Below, piece by piece: positions 35,210 to 46,037 of a stretch of 47,787 bases of DNA. A model generated the notes under the pieces. That model was not told where the DNA came from and did not search any database. It saw only the letters and a program-made list of their open reading frames with translations. This DNA is from a virus, in IMG/VR virus record IMGVR_UViG_3300005253_000173, positions 1-47,787 of that record; one strand, given 5' to 3'. Numbering within the stretch: the first letter of the stretch is position 1; every line of letters starts with the position of its first letter. The translations under genes and the position numbers were made by a program.

Positions 35210-37618
35210 CTATCCAGCGGATACAGGCAGCTTGAGCTTCTTCAAGTCCTTGTAGTTCTCTCCTACTTCTATGTCGCATGGTATAGATAGTTCTCCTCTT
35301 GAGATAGTGCAACCCGAGAAGTCGATGGGCTCCTCCATGACTTCCTTGACGTACGGCGCCACCTCCTGTTCGAGCATGTTCCTCTCGCCCTCGCAAGTGA
35401 AGGAGTCATGAGCTTCTATCAATATCCTGAGGAGAGGGAACTTCTTCTTAGTCTTGATCATCGCTCCCTTGGTTTTATCAGAAACGTCAGCTTGGGGGAT
35501 GTAGGAATACATCTCTCGATATAGGTCATCATTGAGTCGGTTGAGAAATTGACGCACTCTCCCGTGTGCGGTTCTGAGTATGCGGTCACCGTGAGCCACG
35601 GCGCGGATGGCCGGCCAATAAACCTCTTGAATCTTTGGACACTTCTCGTCCATAATCTCAAGGACTTTTCCTGCTCTCCATTGGGAAACTTGGATATCAA
35701 TACCAAACCGTCTTGCCTGCGTGTTAGCTTCCAGCATGAGCCTACGGGCTGTAGTTCCATAAGCATAGGCATGTCTTCCAATCTTCCCAATATGGCGTTC
35801 AGGAGCGGGTTTCTGGTAGCTGGCTTCATCACCTCCGAAGATGAATGCGGACGTTCGCGCATGGACATCGACTCCCTCCTTGAACCATCGAAGTAGTTCT
35901 TCATCCTGTGACAGTACAGCGACAACTCTAGTCTCAGCCGTGGCCAAGTCAGCGTTTAGAAATACCCAGCCAGGGAAAGTCGGTACAAACATGGTGCGAA
36001 TATCCCCTCCGAGATCCCCATGCTTGGTGATGGAGTGGAAGGACATTCCCATCTCATGCATCCTGACGGGTTTCTTGAGAATGGCTGTAGAGGAGCGACC
36101 GGCCTCCGTTCCCACTAGGCGGTAGCTCGTTCTCATTCTGCCATCGTAGTCAACGCGCGATGCAATCTTAGACTTGGCGTTTCTTATCCGGCGGATATTG
36201 ATGATGTGATTGAGGACCGCTCTCTTGTCATCCTTCTTGACGACGTTCATGAGGAGAGCAACAAGGGTATCTTCGTCTACCTTGGCCCGTCGAGGGATTC
36301 TCAATTCTTCCCAGAGGAGGAACTTGACCTGCGGGTGGGAGTTACAGTTGATTGGGTGCCCGATGATCTTGAAGAGCTTATCTTCTTCTTCCAGTTGGAG
36401 GTCAATGTACCTCGCATAGAGCTTGTTACGGACGTCGAAGTCTACCTTGAGACCTATCTCCTCTATCTCTTGATAGATCGGATGGAGCTTCATCACGAAG
36501 TTGAAGAAGAAGTCAACCAGTCCAATCTCCTCCGCGTCCTTCATGAGTTCTTCGTAAGCCTCGAAGGTGACAGCAGAGTCCCGCGCGTTGTAGATGAGGA
36601 TCTTCTCGATGCTATCCTTCGAGGGATCGAAAGTCCTATACTCATCCTTGTAGTAGGGTTCACGGGTGTAAGTCGAGGTGATAAATGCTAGGTTCGCGTC
36701 GAACTCAGGATTGACAGTCTTCTGCAAGAGCATCGTGTCAGCGAAGAGTTTCCACATGCGGAAGCCAATGCATGATAGCTTCTCGTCGTCATACTTCCAG
36801 TTCTGACCGATGAACTCCATCGTCTTGTCACGGAGGAACTTGTCAATCATCCTCCAAATCTCAGCGAGATCGTAAGTGGGGATAGATAGACCAGGGAGGG
36901 GTACGAGAGGGACACTCAGTGACTCATGCCTGGAGAAGGCAATCGAGATCATCGACGGGACGCAGTGGTATGCCTCTATGTCAAGGGCTGCACGTTTATC
37001 ACCCTCATGCCGCCCGAGGTAGTCATAAAGATCAAGGCTCCGCTTGGCGAAGCTCAAGTTACGCTTGGGGAGTTCCAGTTCCTCAGTGAGAGACTCCTCC
37101 ACTGCTCGGTTAAAGTCCATCTGGATGTAGACCTTAGCCGAGTATGGGAACATCCCCTTCTTGCCACGACGCTCGAAGAGGTTTGCTGGATGTATTGAGG
37201 CTACTACCTTCCCACCTACATATAGGCAGGGGAGGATACTTCCCCTCCACTTCTTGATTCCGCTCTCTCCTGTCAGGACTTGTAGTGCTAGGTTACCAAG
37301 CGCAAGGATACACTTCGCTCCACCTTGCGTCCTTATAGCTTTAAGTGTCGTCCACAGGTCAGGGATGCACTCCTCGATCGTGTGCCCAGTTTCAGCGGCT
37401 CGTCTAATGTCATTCCCTGGAGGGCGATACGGAAAGACGTTGGTGTAGAAGCAAGCCTCTGGTGCGATTCCAGCAAGACGGAGCATGGACCGCGTCTCTT
37501 GTCCGGTTGGCCCAACAAAGGGCTGCCCTTGCTCTTCTTCTTGCTTGCCGGGAGCTTCACCACATACGACGAGATCGGCCGAGGATGATCCATAACCAGG
37601 GACATACCTATAGCTCAC
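35210..37618 (-). CDS. Uracil-DNA glycosylase / DNA polymerase I fusion
   Basis: 802 aa. An N-terminal family 4-type UDG domain has GEAPGKQEEEQGQPFVG (residues 20-36) and SIHPA (141-145). A 3'-5' exonuclease follows: exo I DIE (213-215), exo II GQNWKYD (271-277), exo III YNARD (343-347). Family A polymerase: motif A NADLATAETR (555-564), motif B R608-K612-Y620-G621, motif C HDS (737-739) where the usual third residue is Glu; His616 occupies the place of E. coli Phe762. This is the replicative polymerase, with built-in uracil recognition. UDG-PolA fusions exist in other phages. Confidence 0.9.
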   Translation of the reverse strand: MSYRYVPGYGSSSADLVVCGEAPGKQEEEQGQPFVGPTGQETRSMLRLAGIAPEACFYTNVFPYRPPGNDIRRAAETGHTIEECIPDLWTTLKAIRTQGGAKCILALGNLALQVLTGESGIKKWRGSILPCLYVGGKVVASIHPANLFERRGKKGMFPYSAKVYIQMDFNRAVEESLTEELELPKRNLSFAKRSLDLYDYLGRHEGDKRAALDIEAYHCVPSMISIAFSRHESLSVPLVPLPGLSIPTYDLAEIWRMIDKFLRDKTMEFIGQNWKYDDEKLSCIGFRMWKLFADTMLLQKTVNPEFDANLAFITSTYTREPYYKDEYRTFDPSKDSIEKILIYNARDSAVTFEAYEELMKDAEEIGLVDFFFNFVMKLHPIYQEIEEIGLKVDFDVRNKLYARYIDLQLEEEDKLFKIIGHPINCNSHPQVKFLLWEELRIPRRAKVDEDTLVALLMNVVKKDDKRAVLNHIINIRRIRNAKSKIASRVDYDGRMRTSYRLVGTEAGRSSTAILKKPVRMHEMGMSFHSITKHGDLGGDIRTMFVPTFPGWVFLNADLATAETRVVAVLSQDEELLRWFKEGVDVHARTSAFIFGGDEASYQKPAPERHIGKIGRHAYAYGTTARRLMLEANTQARRFGIDIQVSQWRAGKVLEIMDEKCPKIQEVYWPAIRAVAHGDRILRTAHGRVRQFLNRLNDDLYREMYSYIPQADVSDKTKGAMIKTKKKFPLLRILIEAHDSFTCEGERNMLEQEVAPYVKEVMEEPIDFSGCTISRGELSIPCDIEVGENYKDLKKLKLPVSAG

Positions 37619-37937: not shown

Positions 37938-38272
37938 TTCTTCTCCCCTGATACATAATCGACGATGATTCGATCACGTTTGTCTATTTCCCTCTCTAGC
38001 TCCTTAACGCGGACTCTAAGTGCCCTTACGTGCTCATCCCGCAGTTTGCTGGTTTCCCTGTGGACCACATCCGTTAGATTGCAGAGATTCACTTGCGTGG
38101 GATGATCGAACGCCCGTCTCCGCGCTTGAAGGATTGGGTTGTCTTTGAATGGCTCCTCGTTCTCTGATGCCGTGAAAACGCCAGAGACCATCTTCGGTTG
38201 CTCCGGTTCCGGACCATACAACTCAGCCCGCAGCCGCTCGTTCTCGTCCAGCGTCTTGACGTGGTCGTTCAT
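37934..38272 (-). CDS. Coiled-coil protein, 112 aa
   Basis: The ATG at 38272 overlaps the stop of the ParB-methyltransferase gene (ATGA), which fixes the start. A helix at the N-terminus (HVKTLDENERLRAEL), a middle loop rich in Pro/Asn, and a C-terminal basic coiled coil (LRDEHVRALRVRVKELEREI). Function unknown. Confidence 0.7.
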   Translation of the reverse strand: MNDHVKTLDENERLRAELYGPEPEQPKMVSGVFTASENEEPFKDNPILQARRRAFDHPTQVNLCNLTDVVHRETSKLRDEHVRALRVRVKELEREIDKRDRIIVDYVSGEKK

Positions 38273-39567
38273 TTCTTTCCCATCCGTTTCTTGATTCCTT
38301 CGTAAGCAGTATGGTCCCGCTCGATGGCGATCCATCGGCGCTTCAGTGACTCGCAAGCCTCGACATGAGCACCCGAGCCAGCAAAGGGATCGAGTATTAC
38401 GGAACCTTCGTGACTACAGTCTCGGAGGATATGTTGGATTGCTTTGATGGGCTTTTCGTGTGGATGGGTAAGTTTGACGGGGGGAAGTGGGGGGTAGACA
38501 AGGACGGAGGATTGTTGGGTGGAGTGTGTGAGGGATGGGGAGCCTTTCACGGCGAGGAGTATCAGCTCAAAGTCTCGTGAGTATTCCCAAGCTCGTGCTC
38601 CCTTGGAGATGACTACTCCGTGGAGCTTCGCTCTTGCATCCTGTACTGGAGGGGTTCCCTCAAAGACGACTCTCAGTTCCTTCTTCACCCAGAATAGTGG
38701 GGTCTTGGCAACAGTGAAGCCGAAGTGAGGAAGTCGTCGGGAGTAGGAACGGAAGTCCTCGAAGCCGACGAACATGTAGAGGAAGGAGTCGGGCTTGAGA
38801 ACCCGATAGACTTCCTTGAAAACGGGAACGGTATCGTCGTCTCTCGTGAGCTTCTCGTCCACGTACTTGAGCCAAGGCGGATCAGTGATGCACGCATTGA
38901 AGGAGGAATGTGGAAACTGCTTGAGGATGTCAGTGGCTGATCCATTATACACCTGGTTGATAGCAAACTCCACTGGAGCTTCTGCTCCCAGCTCTGCCTC
39001 GATTCTCTTCGCAGCGGAGCGGACTAGACGAATAGCAGTATCCCTGTCCTTGATCTTCCTGAGCACTGGGTCACGCTTGACTGCTGCGTCCAGTGCTATG
39101 GCCTCAGAAATGAAACCGAGAGACTTGCCTAGCTCCGCAGCAGTATCTCTCATCGAGTGACCAGGCCGCTCTCGCTTGGCCTTTCCTTTCTTAGGCTCAG
39201 CTATTCCTTTCTCCTCCTGCCGAAGGGCATGCCAATCGGCGACGTACTCACAGATTTCCCACCAGGGAAGGTTGTACCTTCGTAAGTTCTCCTCGATCTG
39301 AATCAGTTTGAGTTCCTTCTCATCCCCCGAGACGATAACGCAAGGGACCTCCATGTGCCCTATCATCTCGCAGGCTCTGAGTCGTTTCCTCCCCGCTCTA
39401 ACCATGTAGCTAGGCGGCGTAGTGTTCAGATCCTGAACAGCAAGGGGATGCAAGAGTCCTCTCTCCCTAATGGACTCGGATAGTTCCTCGATCTCGCGAG
39501 TGACTTCAGTGTCCTCTGCTCCCCCGAGGAACTGCATTTGGATGTGTTGAATCTTTAGTTCCTTCAT
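38269..39567 (-). CDS. ParB-like domain fused to DNA methyltransferase
   Basis: ATG 39567 has AGAGGAGAAA upstream and overlaps the previous stop (ATGA); 432 aa. N-terminal ParB/Srx-like domain: LSESIRERGLLHPLAV, RAGRKRLRACEM, and QIEENLRR, the classical set. A middle HTH-like region (DTAAELGKSLGFISEAI) and then an amino-methyltransferase with DPPW (229-232) ahead of DPFAGSG (393-399), the permuted N4/N6 type. It would methylate exocyclic amino groups on DNA, probably guided by the ParB-like and HTH parts. Palindrome copy 7 lies inside the ParB region. Confidence 0.85.
   Translation of the reverse strand: MKELKIQHIQMQFLGGAEDTEVTREIEELSESIRERGLLHPLAVQDLNTTPPSYMVRAGRKRLRACEMIGHMEVPCVIVSGDEKELKLIQIEENLRRYNLPWWEICEYVADWHALRQEEKGIAEPKKGKAKRERPGHSMRDTAAELGKSLGFISEAIALDAAVKRDPVLRKIKDRDTAIRLVRSAAKRIEAELGAEAPVEFAINQVYNGSATDILKQFPHSSFNACITDPPWLKYVDEKLTRDDDTVPVFKEVYRVLKPDSFLYMFVGFEDFRSYSRRLPHFGFTVAKTPLFWVKKELRVVFEGTPPVQDARAKLHGVVISKGARAWEYSRDFELILLAVKGSPSLTHSTQQSSVLVYPPLPPVKLTHPHEKPIKAIQHILRDCSHEGSVILDPFAGSGAHVEACESLKRRWIAIERDHTAYEGIKKRMGKK
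39422..39440. repeat. Dispersed palindrome, copy 7 (in ParB-methyltransferase gene)
   Basis: One mismatch from the consensus; read on the minus strand as AVQDLNT. Confidence 0.8.
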
Positions 39568-39821
39568 TTTCTCCTCTGCGACGACCCACAATTGCAGTGG
39601 TGCTGATAGGTTGCGTGACCGACGATTCCCTTACACGTGTGGTGTAGATGGAACTCGTCGTTACTCTTTGTCGTCCATTCGTGGTCGCATCTAGGCTTTT
39701 GGCGCAGGAGGAGGGCCCGCTGAATAATGGGATCTCTCAGACTCCCAGGGTAACTCGACGACTGTGAACCCGGCCGCATTCCTGTGACCTCTTTAACTAG
39801 CTCGCTTAGATGCTTCGCCAT
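39564..39821 (-). CDS. His/Cys-rich hypothetical protein, 85 aa
   Basis: Joined to the ParB-methyltransferase gene by ATGA. The C-terminal half is rich in His and Cys (CDHEW, HLHHTCKG, HHCNCG), likely a metal site. No family recognised. Confidence 0.65.
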   Translation of the reverse strand: MAKHLSELVKEVTGMRPGSQSSSYPGSLRDPIIQRALLLRQKPRCDHEWTTKSNDEFHLHHTCKGIVGHATYQHHCNCGSSQRRK

Positions 39822-40512: not shown

Positions 40513-40692
40513 TTAGACGTCGGGGGCGGGCTCCTCGGGATCTCCCTCGGTGGCCTCGTCGTCGTCCTCGTCTTCGGCGTGCTCTTCCTTCTCGAGAGCG
40601 TCCTCGTCAGGCTCTGGAGCTTCGGGCTCAGGAGCATGCTCGAGGGGTTCGCCCCCTTCAGGAGAAGCGAGTAGGGTGTATCGTTCTTCCAC
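40513..40692 (-). CDS. Extremely acidic 59-aa protein or read-through tail of the gene before it
   Basis: GTG at 40692 with strong AGGAGG. Of 59 residues about 26 are Asp or Glu and only two are Lys or Arg (for example EHAEDEDDDEATEGDPEEP). The frame is the same as that of the DUF669-like gene upstream, separated from it only by that gene's TAG and three sense codons. It may be made alone as a DNA mimic or acidic partner, or as a C-terminal extension by amber read-through. SSB-type proteins carry just such acidic C-terminal tails. Confidence 0.7.
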   Translation of the reverse strand: MEERYTLLASPEGGEPLEHAPEPEAPEPDEDALEKEEHAEDEDDDEATEGDPEEPAPDV

Positions 40693-40701
40693 GTTGTCCT
40701 C

Positions 40702-41091
40702 CTACCCAGTCTCGACAATGTGCTTGCGGAAACGAGCCACATTGTTCTGGAGGTTGCCCTTGTCGTCCTTGCGCTGCTCGATGTAGCCGTCGATGGTCTT
40801 GCCCTTGGTGGAGTCGAACTCGAAGTTGCCACCACCCTCGACGAGGGGAGTGCCGCAAGCTTCTGCGAAGTCCTTGATGAATCCAGGAGCTTTCTCATTG
40901 AAGTAGCGCGGAACAGGAACGCCCTTGTACTTCCCGTCCGAGATGATCAGAAGGTCGACGATGACATTCTGAGAGGCGTCTGTCTTGGCCTCCTCCTCGC
41001 GGATTCCTTCGACTCGAAGAGCGTACCACGCGGCCGCCTCGATCAGGGTTCCACGGAGAAGATCTTCTGCGGAGTATCTCATCTTTGGCAT
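40702..41091 (-). CDS. DUF669-like single-strand DNA-binding protein
   Basis: 129 aa with an OB-like strand pattern: NVIVDLLIISDGKYKGVPVP, APGFIKDFAEACG, DGYIEQRKDDKGNLQNNVAR. This agrees with DUF669-type proteins that accompany Sak4 annealing ATPases in phage recombination modules; the Sak4-like gene is two genes upstream here. It would coat ssDNA. The protein ends at VETG with TAG, and the reading frame continues open into an acidic tract. The family call is from motif layout and neighbours. Confidence 0.65.
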   Translation of the reverse strand: MPKMRYSAEDLLRGTLIEAAAWYALRVEGIREEEAKTDASQNVIVDLLIISDGKYKGVPVPRYFNEKAPGFIKDFAEACGTPLVEGGGNFEFDSTKGKTIDGYIEQRKDDKGNLQNNVARFRKHIVETG

Positions 41092-41508: not shown

Positions 41509-42348
41509 TCACTTCTCCAACAATGTCGCGGCGTAAGACGAGTCCATCTTCTTCACTTCCTCCATGATCTTAGGATAGAGTCCAAGCTCTCCCGGTTTCA
41601 TCGACCAGTCCATCTTACCAGGGAGGGATAGAGCGGATCTACATTCGGGGTAGATTTCGTTGGGGACAGTATAGATGTAATACTCCGGCAGGTCACCCAT
41701 CACTCCGGGTGTCGAGGGCTCGAAGAGGTAGACTTCATCGAAGAAGATGGGAACCTTCGGAGCTATCTTCCGACCTTGAGTCACGACGAGTCGCTCGACT
41801 CGCTCCTCCTCGGCTGCGTTCTGTCCCTTGCCCTTCTTCACCTTGTAGGTAATGGTTATGAGGTGAGCGGTCATGATGAAGTGGCGAGGGAATGTGCGGA
41901 GATTGTCGAGGACTGCGGAGATGCATCGCTGCTCCGCCTTGTAGTCCTGGATCTCGGGCATGGAGAGACCTGACTTGCCAAGCTTCATCGCGGCGGATCT
42001 GGGAGTACAGTCCATTGAGAAGGTGATACTCTGATCAGCGAGCATCGTTAGCCCGTCGAGAACTACTCCCCAGTAGCGGCTAGGATCATCGAGGAGCCAG
42101 TTCACCTTGTCGAAGAGTCTCTCGAAGTCGTGGGGCTTGTAGTAGTCGAAGTCGATCTTGTCGAGGAGCTGAGGGTACATTTTTACGATCGGGCGGATGC
42201 GGCCGTCCAAGTCGAAGACATATATCTTCTCCCCTTCAGGAGCTAGCTGGGCGAGGGACGCCGCTCCGACGGTCTTGCCTCCTCCCGAACGACCGACATG
42301 CAGGGCCTTGATCCTGCCTGCGGGGGGTACTTCACTTAGACTTGGCAT
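41509..42348 (-). CDS. Sak4-like RecA-family ATPase
   Basis: 279 aa. Walker A GRSGGGKT (residues 19-26), an early strand-Asp pair (IYVFDLDGR), Walker B-type strand (WGVVLDGLTML), and a RecA-like core in the expected length for Sak4 single-strand annealing proteins. Sak4 anneals complementary strands together with SSB in phage recombination and replication. Neighbours (DUF669-like protein, Cas4-like nuclease) support this. The alternative is a generic phage AAA_24 ATPase of the same superfamily. Confidence 0.8.
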   Translation of the reverse strand: MPSLSEVPPAGRIKALHVGRSGGGKTVGAASLAQLAPEGEKIYVFDLDGRIRPIVKMYPQLLDKIDFDYYKPHDFERLFDKVNWLLDDPSRYWGVVLDGLTMLADQSITFSMDCTPRSAAMKLGKSGLSMPEIQDYKAEQRCISAVLDNLRTFPRHFIMTAHLITITYKVKKGKGQNAAEEERVERLVVTQGRKIAPKVPIFFDEVYLFEPSTPGVMGDLPEYYIYTVPNEIYPECRSALSLPGKMDWSMKPGELGLYPKIMEEVKKMDSSYAATLLEK

Positions 42349-43570: not shown

Positions 43571-44428
43571 CTACCTCTTATCGTAAATGGACTGTAGCCT
43601 CACGCGCTTGATGAAGTTTTCGTTGAGGAATCTTTCCCTTTCATCCGGGCTCTGCATGCAGACATCTTGGAACCAGCAGCCGCTGTACTCGTCACACTTG
43701 GTGAAGTCAGGTGGCCAGTTGTCGCTCTTGATACAGGCGTCGATGAACTGCGCGCGGTAGACAGTCCATCCCACCCACCACTCTAGGACTTTTTGAGGGT
43801 AGGGGAAGAAATCTCGAGTAAACTTCCTCTCAGGGGGTACCGTCTTCTGGAAGCCTACGTTATTTCTCATGGATCGCTTCGTGCCAGAAACGTGTGCGTA
43901 AGCCATGAACTGATTAGAGACAGGCGTCGCTTCCTTGTTCCGGCTTCGAGTCTTGTGATCCGTCCAAAGCAGGTGCCCCTGCTGGTTCTCGAAGATGATA
44001 TCGACGATCATTTGAAGGAGAACTCTCAATCCTTCTTCCTCGTCAGTATCCTCCCGCTCGAATAGGACGAAAGTGACGGGATGCTCTATGGCGACTGGAG
44101 TGTACGGATCAGTCTGCCAGAAGAGACAGTACTGATTGAAGGTACTAATGACTACGTCTTCGGACTCCTCGATTTCAAGGTCCATCTTGATGACTTTCTT
44201 CCGACCCAACTCGATAGCCTTATCGATCATCTCAAGGTGTGGGAGCCGCTCCTCTGGCTTCTTCATCTTCTCGCGATAGTATTCCGCGAGCATGATATGC
44301 ATGAGGTCGCCCTTCTCAAGGAAGGCAGGCTTCTTCTTGGGCGCCGCTTCGACGATCTTATCGTACATAAATTTCGTCATGCACGAAGAGAGGTTGAGTG
44401 AGTTAGGAGAGGTCAAGAGCGTCTTCAT
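43571..44428 (-). CDS. Cas4/RecB-like PD-(D/E)XK nuclease with Fe-S cysteines
   Basis: 285 aa. Nuclease motifs: MHIMLAEYY (His44, Glu49), MIVDIIFE (Asp143), WTDHKT (Asp157, Lys159), and QFMAY (Gln173...Tyr177). Four cysteines fit a Cas4-type iron-sulfur cluster: Cys16 in SSCMTKF, and C-terminal Cys245, Cys251, Cys257. No cas1/cas2 or repeat array is present, so this is a phage recombination exonuclease that trims ends for Sak4 annealing, as in other phages. It overlaps its upstream neighbour by 26 nt. Confidence 0.85.
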   Translation of the reverse strand: MKTLLTSPNSLNLSSCMTKFMYDKIVEAAPKKKPAFLEKGDLMHIMLAEYYREKMKKPEERLPHLEMIDKAIELGRKKVIKMDLEIEESEDVVISTFNQYCLFWQTDPYTPVAIEHPVTFVLFEREDTDEEEGLRVLLQMIVDIIFENQQGHLLWTDHKTRSRNKEATPVSNQFMAYAHVSGTKRSMRNNVGFQKTVPPERKFTRDFFPYPQKVLEWWVGWTVYRAQFIDACIKSDNWPPDFTKCDEYSGCWFQDVCMQSPDERERFLNENFIKRVRLQSIYDKR

Positions 44429-44999: not shown

Positions 45000-45536
45000 T
45001 TACCCTCCGAAATACCACGATCCCTTATACGCAGGACCGTACCAACAGCCGTCTGTAAAAGCTACGGAGTGATACTCTTCAATGACATCACCTGAAGCCC
45101 GAACAGCGAGAGCATCTGCCCAAGGACCGCGCGCGCAGATGTTCACCCGCTGAAGCTCCACTGCCAGCAGTGCTAGCGTGTTGAAGGGATTCTCTCCACA
45201 CCGCTCGCCGACCTGAACCTTCGCGGCTTCGACTTGGTCCATCATCTCAGGTGCACTGCGGAACCAGCTCCACCCTGGAGCCTCCGCGTCTGGAATGATG
45301 CAAGAGGTATCGCGGTGAGTGCAGCACAGTTGGTACTGCCACCAGCCATCGCGGAGCTCGTAGCAATCACAAAGGATCGCGCAGTCGGCTCTTTGCTCTG
45401 GAGTGAGATGTTCTCTCGCTGCGATCGCCTGACACTGCTGGGCTTCTGGAGGAGCCTCACTCCCTGTTGGAACTATCACCTCCTTCGTACATGCGACGAG
45501 TGCGACCAGTGATAGTACAGCGATTAGACTTTTCAT
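45000..45536 (-). CDS. Predicted lipoprotein, Cys-rich, 178 aa
   Basis: Perfect type II signal: basic start, hydrophobic SLIAVLSLVALVAC with lipobox LVAC and lipidated Cys16. Thr-Lys follows the Cys, so transfer to the outer membrane is plausible. The mature part is rich in Cys (CDCYEL, QLCCTH) and Trp. Together with the neighbouring lipobox protease and secreted protein it forms an envelope gene group. Possible roles are superinfection exclusion or lysis; no family is recognised. Confidence 0.8.
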   Translation of the reverse strand: MKSLIAVLSLVALVACTKEVIVPTGSEAPPEAQQCQAIAAREHLTPEQRADCAILCDCYELRDGWWQYQLCCTHRDTSCIIPDAEAPGWSWFRSAPEMMDQVEAAKVQVGERCGENPFNTLALLAVELQRVNICARGPWADALAVRASGDVIEEYHSVAFTDGCWYGPAYKGSWYFGG

Positions 45537-45545
45537 TTTTTCCTC

Positions 45546-46037
45546 CTAAAACAAAAGGCGCGGATCTTCCCAGTTGTCCACGACACACTGATTGGCAAGG
45601 TCTTCTACGTTGATAGAGTAGTCACCATACCCCATCTTGAGATGGCAGCACTCGTGTCTGGCGAAGGCAAAAAGCAAATCTCTATCATACCTCTCAGGGT
45701 CCTCCGCTAACCGAGACCATATGACTACCTCATTCTTGCTGATAGCTGCCCACATTGCAGCCGTGAGGGTCTCACCTGGACGGCCATAAGGTGTACCATC
45801 AATTAGTCTCACTTCATCAGAGTATCTTATGACAGCAGTGATACTTAGTTTATTGCACTCGTTCATGACTATGGCTGCTATGTTGAACTCACTCGGTCCT
45901 GTGGAGTTGCGGTAATTCTGGCAACCAAGTATGCTGTAGAGGATAACCATGGACACCCAGAAGGCGAACCGAGGCCACCTTATCTTGTACAGCTTTCCTG
46001 CTAGCCACATCAGGACGTTGCGTTCGTGGGTTAGCAA
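45546..46037 (-). CDS. Lipobox-bearing zinc metalloprotease-like protein
   Basis: 163 aa, TTG start with GAGGAG, overlapping the stop of the upstream gene. One hydrophobic segment (FAFWVSMVILYSILGC) ends in the lipobox ILGC (Cys39), giving lipoprotein or single-pass topology. The mature domain contains HECCH (residues 128-132), the HExxH zinc motif, followed by Tyr/Asp-rich sequence with Glu and Asn near residue 144-148 that could be the third ligand. A membrane-bound protease encoded by a phage is unusual; it could process envelope proteins during lysis or exclusion. Activity is untested. Confidence 0.7.
   Translation of the reverse strand: MLTHERNVLMWLAGKLYKIRWPRFAFWVSMVILYSILGCQNYRNSTGPSEFNIAAIVMNECNKLSITAVIRYSDEVRLIDGTPYGRPGETLTAAMWAAISKNEVVIWSRLAEDPERYDRDLLFAFARHECCHLKMGYGDYSINVEDLANQCVVDNWEDPRLLF

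Follow-up and report, generated by a model that had tools for sequence, protein, structure and literature searches.

A candidate split single-stranded DNA-binding protein with a separately encoded acidic tail in uncultivated tailed phages

Introduction

In the textbook account, single-stranded DNA-binding proteins (SSBs) recruit proteins of repair and replication through their tails, and these are described as belonging to the SSB chain itself. The locus studied here belongs to an IMG/VR virus record of 47,787 bases, the whole of which was analysed and is referred to as the window, and it raises the question of how such a tail is produced when an SSB-like core ends at an amber codon and the same frame continues into a highly acidic open reading frame (ORF). 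The initial annotation had offered two routes to a tail, i.e., amber read-through giving a core–tail fusion, or translation of core and tail as separate chains. No split SSB of the latter kind is described in the literature searched, the coverage of which was incomplete.

Results

Core gene, acidic mini-gene and their junction

The junction comprises the following features.

40702–41091, minus strand: SSB-like core with predicted OB fold, 129 aa, tailless (ends FRKHIVETG), TAG stop
40702–40704, minus strand: TAG stop of the core, the AG of which is part of AGGAGG
40698–40703, minus strand: Shine-Dalgarno sequence AGGAGG of the acidic gene, assigned from the sequence and overlapping the core stop
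40513–40692, minus strand: acidic mini-gene running from GTG to TAA and encoding 59 aa; proposed to supply the SSB tail in trans

After the core TAG, the same frame reads GAG GAC AAC GTG and stays open as far as the TAA at 40513; the acidic ORF contains 8 Asp and 18 Glu residues, and Lys and Arg together account for two. The initial annotation had described this arrangement correctly (core TAG, three open codons, a 59-aa frame with 26 acidic and two basic residues, AGGAGG and GTG), and its statement that amber is not globally reassigned also holds, TAG serving as a stop throughout the window. The overlap of TAG and AGGAGG at the core–acidic junction is TAGGAGGACAACGTG, and since the AGGAGG partly overlaps the TAG and lies upstream of the GTG, it constitutes a proper Shine-Dalgarno sequence for the acidic ORF.

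The acidic ORF exceeds every other ORF of the window in net negative charge, with 21 per 40 aa against at most 11 per 40 aa in 100 Markov-simulated genomes, and its GA dinucleotides fall predominantly in one codon phase (26, with 2 and 1 in the remaining two). The chain ends EEPAPDV, i.e., the acidic tract is present without an IPF tip. The last 25 residues of the core are net basic, and the core carries no acidic/aromatic tip of the HK620 type on its own chain. A shared frame is ordinary in this part of the genome: 5 of 21 neighbouring gene pairs of this arm are in frame (3 with a TAG between the two genes), and the pair 45546–46037 and 45000–45536 displays a TAG plus 9-nt geometry identical to that of the core/acidic pair.

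Conservation of the gene pair among relatives

Three close relatives were found in IMG/VR through their Sak4 proteins (64–65% identity) and a fourth through alignment of the core (71%); a polymerase-based scan of viral contigs found no relatives. In all four, the core is followed downstream by a small acidic ORF in another frame with its own Shine-Dalgarno sequence, at distances of 31, 115, 119 and 136 nt. For wider relatives, a scan with an exonuclease alignment yielded 43 loci, in which the Sak4 and SSB-like genes were located by iterated profile searches; a pair was scored when an acidic ORF (net charge of at least 12 per 30 aa) ended 50–500 nt past the stop of the SSB-like gene. In 34 of the 39 related IMG/VR loci that have the SSB-like gene (some of them near-duplicates), an acidic ORF follows closely on its 3′ side; judged from how often such ORFs occur in the remainder of the same DNA, about 0.011 per locus would be expected by chance. 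The five exceptions are L048, in which the start of an acidic gene is recognisable before it runs into an apparently chimeric contig end, and L079, L080, L082 and L083, in which an ORF encoding a zinc finger plus acidic tail lies upstream of the exonuclease.

The 27 non-identical core/acidic pairs form 8 core clusters at 60% identity. All 27 cores lack an acidic C-terminus (net at most 3 in the last 25 aa), a Shine-Dalgarno sequence precedes nearly every homologous acidic ORF start, and the acidic chains vary in length between 46 and 82 aa. That the acidic stretch is not a gene but a purine-rich DNA or RNA element, open by accident, is an explanation to which we assign a negligible probability: the coding strand is indeed GA-rich, however, the GA dinucleotides of the relatives' acidic ORFs display a strong codon phase (805 / 8 / 100), both GAY and GAR codons are used, start signals are present and the peptide tip is conserved in one lineage. 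The codon phase of the GA dinucleotides likewise led us to reject a purine-tract DNA element. As judged by sequence comparison, the acidic ORF is conserved as a gene in its own right that is translated separately from the core. The window acidic chain itself aligns only marginally with those of the relatives (shuffle fractions 0.026–0.47), and it is assigned as their orthologue from position and composition.

More distant phages (L017, L019 and L023–L026) encode a small SSB-like core with neither a tail nor an acidic ORF, which indicates that the tail is not universally needed. Among the relatives, the acidic segment rides on N-terminal mini-domains that differ by lineage, as if a tail module swaps carriers; these are a zinc ribbon (L084:3719–3865), a small folded domain (L072:7670–7918 and L085:8481–8705) and zinc fingers (L079:5090–5419 and L082:5007–5300). 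The cores of L064, L069, L071, L075, L076 and L081 terminate in short sequences (e.g., NIPGSDF or NVPDADF) reminiscent of a minimal SSB tip, and the same loci have a separate acidic ORF without a tip.

Read-through versus separate translation

Programmed amber read-through to a core–tail fusion would account for the shared frame of the window, open across three codons, and for the frequency of TAG among the stops of SSB-like genes (22 of 27 pairs, compared with 57 of 192 background genes). However, the two frames coincide in only 10 of the 27 pairs (p = 0.69 against 1/3), 7 of these 10 have further in-frame stops between core and acidic ORF, and the core of L005 ends in TAA. Where the tail lies out of reach of read-through, the core TAG is no less conserved; nearly every acidic ORF has a Shine-Dalgarno sequence of its own, and the acidic ORF is out of frame, 31–136 nt away, in each of the four close relatives. 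The initial annotation had named homologues with an out-of-frame acidic ORF as the observation that would speak against its read-through proposal, and this is what the close relatives display; together with an in-frame share at the level of chance and cores that end in TAA, it leaves read-through highly improbable. The excess of TAG at SSB-like stops is also seen with the acidic ORF out of frame, and the related loci in which it was counted are non-independent.

The second route of the initial annotation, core and tail as separate chains, is upheld by the synteny in 34 of 39 loci, the separate Shine-Dalgarno sequences, the tailless cores, the fused forms found elsewhere and the lineage with a DDDDIPF tip (see below). 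None of the 27 cores is fused to an acidic tail, whereas SSBs of other phages often are.

The RNA between core and acidic ORF was not more stable than shuffled sequences in the four gaps from the close relatives (z between −0.82 and 0.22). By eye, hairpin-like inverted repeats are seen in the core–acidic gaps of L063, L065, L066, L072 and L081, and these may act as terminators or processing sites and so uncouple the expression of core and acidic gene.

Recombination cassette and identity of the core

Two neighbouring genes place the pair in a recombination cassette.

41509–42348, minus strand: Sak4-like (AAA_24/RecA-core) single-strand annealing protein, the likely partner (phrog_124, E = 1.4e-9; PF13479 above cut-off)
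43571–44428, minus strand: PD-(D/E)XK/Cas4-like exonuclease of the recombination cassette (PF12705, phrog_1218)

The cassette runs from the exonuclease through the Sak4-like annealase and one small ORF to the core and the acidic ORF; the core thus adjoins sak4 with a single small ORF between them, and this order is kept in the relatives. Downstream of the acidic ORF follow a ParB–methyltransferase fusion and a family A polymerase. The former (38269–39591) joins a ParB N-terminal domain to an N6/N4 DNA methyltransferase and was also seen, by eye, in L004 and L005; the latter (35210–37618) carries a fused N-terminal domain of the uracil-DNA-glycosylase superfamily, and a similar polymerase is present in the distant L017.

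An AlphaFold model of the core based on 28 homologues has a pLDDT of 90.6 and an OB-like strand order; an earlier model based on 5 sequences reached 77.7. With the earlier model, Foldseek matched several DUF669 proteins in BFVD, with E down to 2.6e-6, and the nearest solved structure was PrgE (PDB codes 8s4s and 8s4t; E = 8.7e-5). PrgE was dropped as the nearest structure, being absent among the listed matches of the better model, whose PDB matches are below significance and comprise mixed OB-fold proteins, SSBs and RPA included.

At the level of sequence, the Pfam profile PF05037 (DUF669) does not match the window core and gives 0.022 at best for two relatives, below the curated cut-off, and profile–profile comparison yields a probability of 11%. 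For one close relative of the window core there is a phrog_3724 match spanning the OB region (E = 0.0019), and the core of L066, from the clade with split genes, has a weak match (E = 0.03) to the DUF669 protein in bajarodcaudo virus 5. Searches of the PDB, the phage collection and species genomes with the core sequence gave no matches. A canonical SSB (PF00436) was found neither in the window nor in the three relatives tested, while 12 of 14 control genomes match this profile. The SSB/DUF669 assignment of the initial annotation is plausible in view of the OB-like model, the Sak4 neighbour and the DUF669 matches in Foldseek, but it is not backed by any sequence profile passing its cut-off. Membership of the core in DUF669 is weakly indicated by sequence and moderately by predicted fold.

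SSB-type tips on separate and fused chains

The C-terminal tip of Escherichia coli SSB is DDDIPF. Among the related loci, the acidic ORFs of L054, L055, L056, L057, L059 and L060, which encode identical chains, and that of L061 end in DDDDIPF. The acidic chains of L054 and L061 agree in 7 of 7 tip residues and in only 8 of 44 residues elsewhere; all these loci belong to one lineage and therefore represent one evolutionary case, not seven. Acidic chains of other lineages, including the window, are without this tip. A separate acidic chain that ends in DDDDIPF suggests that here the tail has become a protein of its own. In a pattern scan for DDDDIPF, most proteins among the matches listed are SSB-sized, and a few are small with other bodies; the latter include, among the matches listed, small viral proteins of 73–89 aa with different bodies (L134, L109, L115, L095, L092, L140 and L137). 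No amphipathic docking helix was demonstrated at the N-terminal end of the acidic chains; of these, L063 and L065 alone are below the 5% shuffle level, and L066 and L068 come near it.

In other phages, DUF669-type SSBs encoded next to Sak4 carry a long fused acidic C-terminal tract in 11 of 18 sampled genomes, a fraction that is only indicative as the sample was hand-picked for diversity (from two tblastn lists, with Troll4, chosen earlier, and two later matches added). The fused tail is present in Axym, Troll4, JacoRen57, Huwbert, Opt-155, STP9, Polewnik, Jalebi, Lovelyunicorn, Braxoaddie and bajarodcaudo virus 5, and absent from GodonK, Molivia, Siara, MMDA13, JenK1, Erebus and MiCath. The fused tail of Mycobacterium phage Troll4 gp60 ends in DDPF and that of bajarodcaudo virus 5 contains EDDDLPF. 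Matches to both DUF669 (at best 1.1e-6) and phrog_3724 were obtained for seven of the fused cores.

Discussion

We favour, by a modest measure, the interpretation that the pair constitutes a split SSB, in which the OB-fold core is complemented by an acidic tail supplied as a separate chain. The 129-aa DUF669-like core, a putative ssDNA binder, would work beside the Sak4 annealase and the Cas4-like exonuclease, and the tail, which is fused in other phages, would here be translated separately, with a ribosome-binding site of its own. The acidic chain would then play the part of a fused tail on or with SSB-coated ssDNA: it would recruit Sak4 or host proteins that bind SSB tails, and/or compete with ssDNA for the DNA-binding groove of the core. 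A tail on a separate chain could be adjusted in dose independently of the core. Binding of ssDNA by the core, cooperation of the two chains and recruitment of Sak4 or host proteins by the tail are what we infer from these data.

Small, highly acidic phage proteins can also be DNA mimics, and the acidic chain may in principle be an Ocr-like mimic or counter-defence protein that merely travels in the recombination cassette. The differing mini-domains that carry the acidic segment (the zinc ribbon of L084 and the small folded domain of L072/L085) would fit such a role, as would the zinc-finger-plus-acidic ORF of L079/L082, located upstream of the exonuclease rather than beside the SSB. We nevertheless consider a mimic rather unlikely, as the acidic ORF adjoins the SSB in 34 of 39 loci, the Asp/Glu tracts are of low complexity with no evident folded acidic surface, one lineage has the SSB-type DDDDIPF tip and the same type of protein has a fused tail elsewhere; furthermore, the acidic protein has neither a PADLOC match nor an informative PHROG match. 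An acidic chaperone or competitor, which keeps the SSB or Sak4 soluble or strips SSB from ssDNA and recruits no partner, would agree with the finding that most acidic chains are simple Asp/Glu tracts lacking an aromatic tip, but it leaves the conserved DDDDIPF of the L054/L061 lineage unexplained, and we regard it as improbable.

The reading of the mini-protein as an SSB tail in trans, serving Sak4 or host partners, is drawn by analogy with phage HK620, in which the last six residues of the DUF669 SSB (NDYPPF), on a fused tip, are needed for Sak4 binding to SSB-coated ssDNA (PMC5928155). More tentatively, and with somewhat less than an even chance in our estimate, a large group of uncultivated tailed phages may use an obligate two-chain SSB, composed of an OB core without a tail and an acidic tail translated apart from it that acts in trans (and bears a true SSB-Ct tip in one lineage), so that the number of recruitment tails could be set independently of the protein coating the DNA.

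If the tail is naturally kept as a separate gene, covalent attachment to the SSB would not be required. If the proposed split is true, it would provide a ready-made in-trans tail for biochemistry, and recruitment by the tail versus competition with ssDNA becomes testable.

Comparison with known systems

PrgE of plasmid pCF10 is a small OB-fold ssDNA binder, as is proposed for the core, but it is a plasmid protein, and its paper mentions no acidic tail or partner. Gordonia phage Axym shares with the window the order of Cas4 exonuclease, Sak4 and OB core, and its gp38, an SSB of the phrog_3724 type, has a long acidic C-terminal tract; however, SSBs of this type are one chain, whereas the window has two, and the sequence similarity between the cores is very weak. 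Bacterial SSBs (PF00436) have a tail comparable with the acidic chains in its acidic low-complexity tract and, for L054/L061, in the DDDDIPF tip; unlike in bacteria, the tip of L054/L061 is located on a free-standing protein of 51 aa, and the core is not PF00436. A further parallel is the DUF669 SSB of HK620 (HkaK/Abc1; Hutinet et al. 2018, PMC5928155), which, like the window core, is encoded in a sak4 cassette and is an SSB-like chain of a type, DUF669, to which the window core plausibly belongs. In HK620 the tip is fused on a 21-kDa protein, whereas in the window the core is tailless and a second gene encodes the acidic part.
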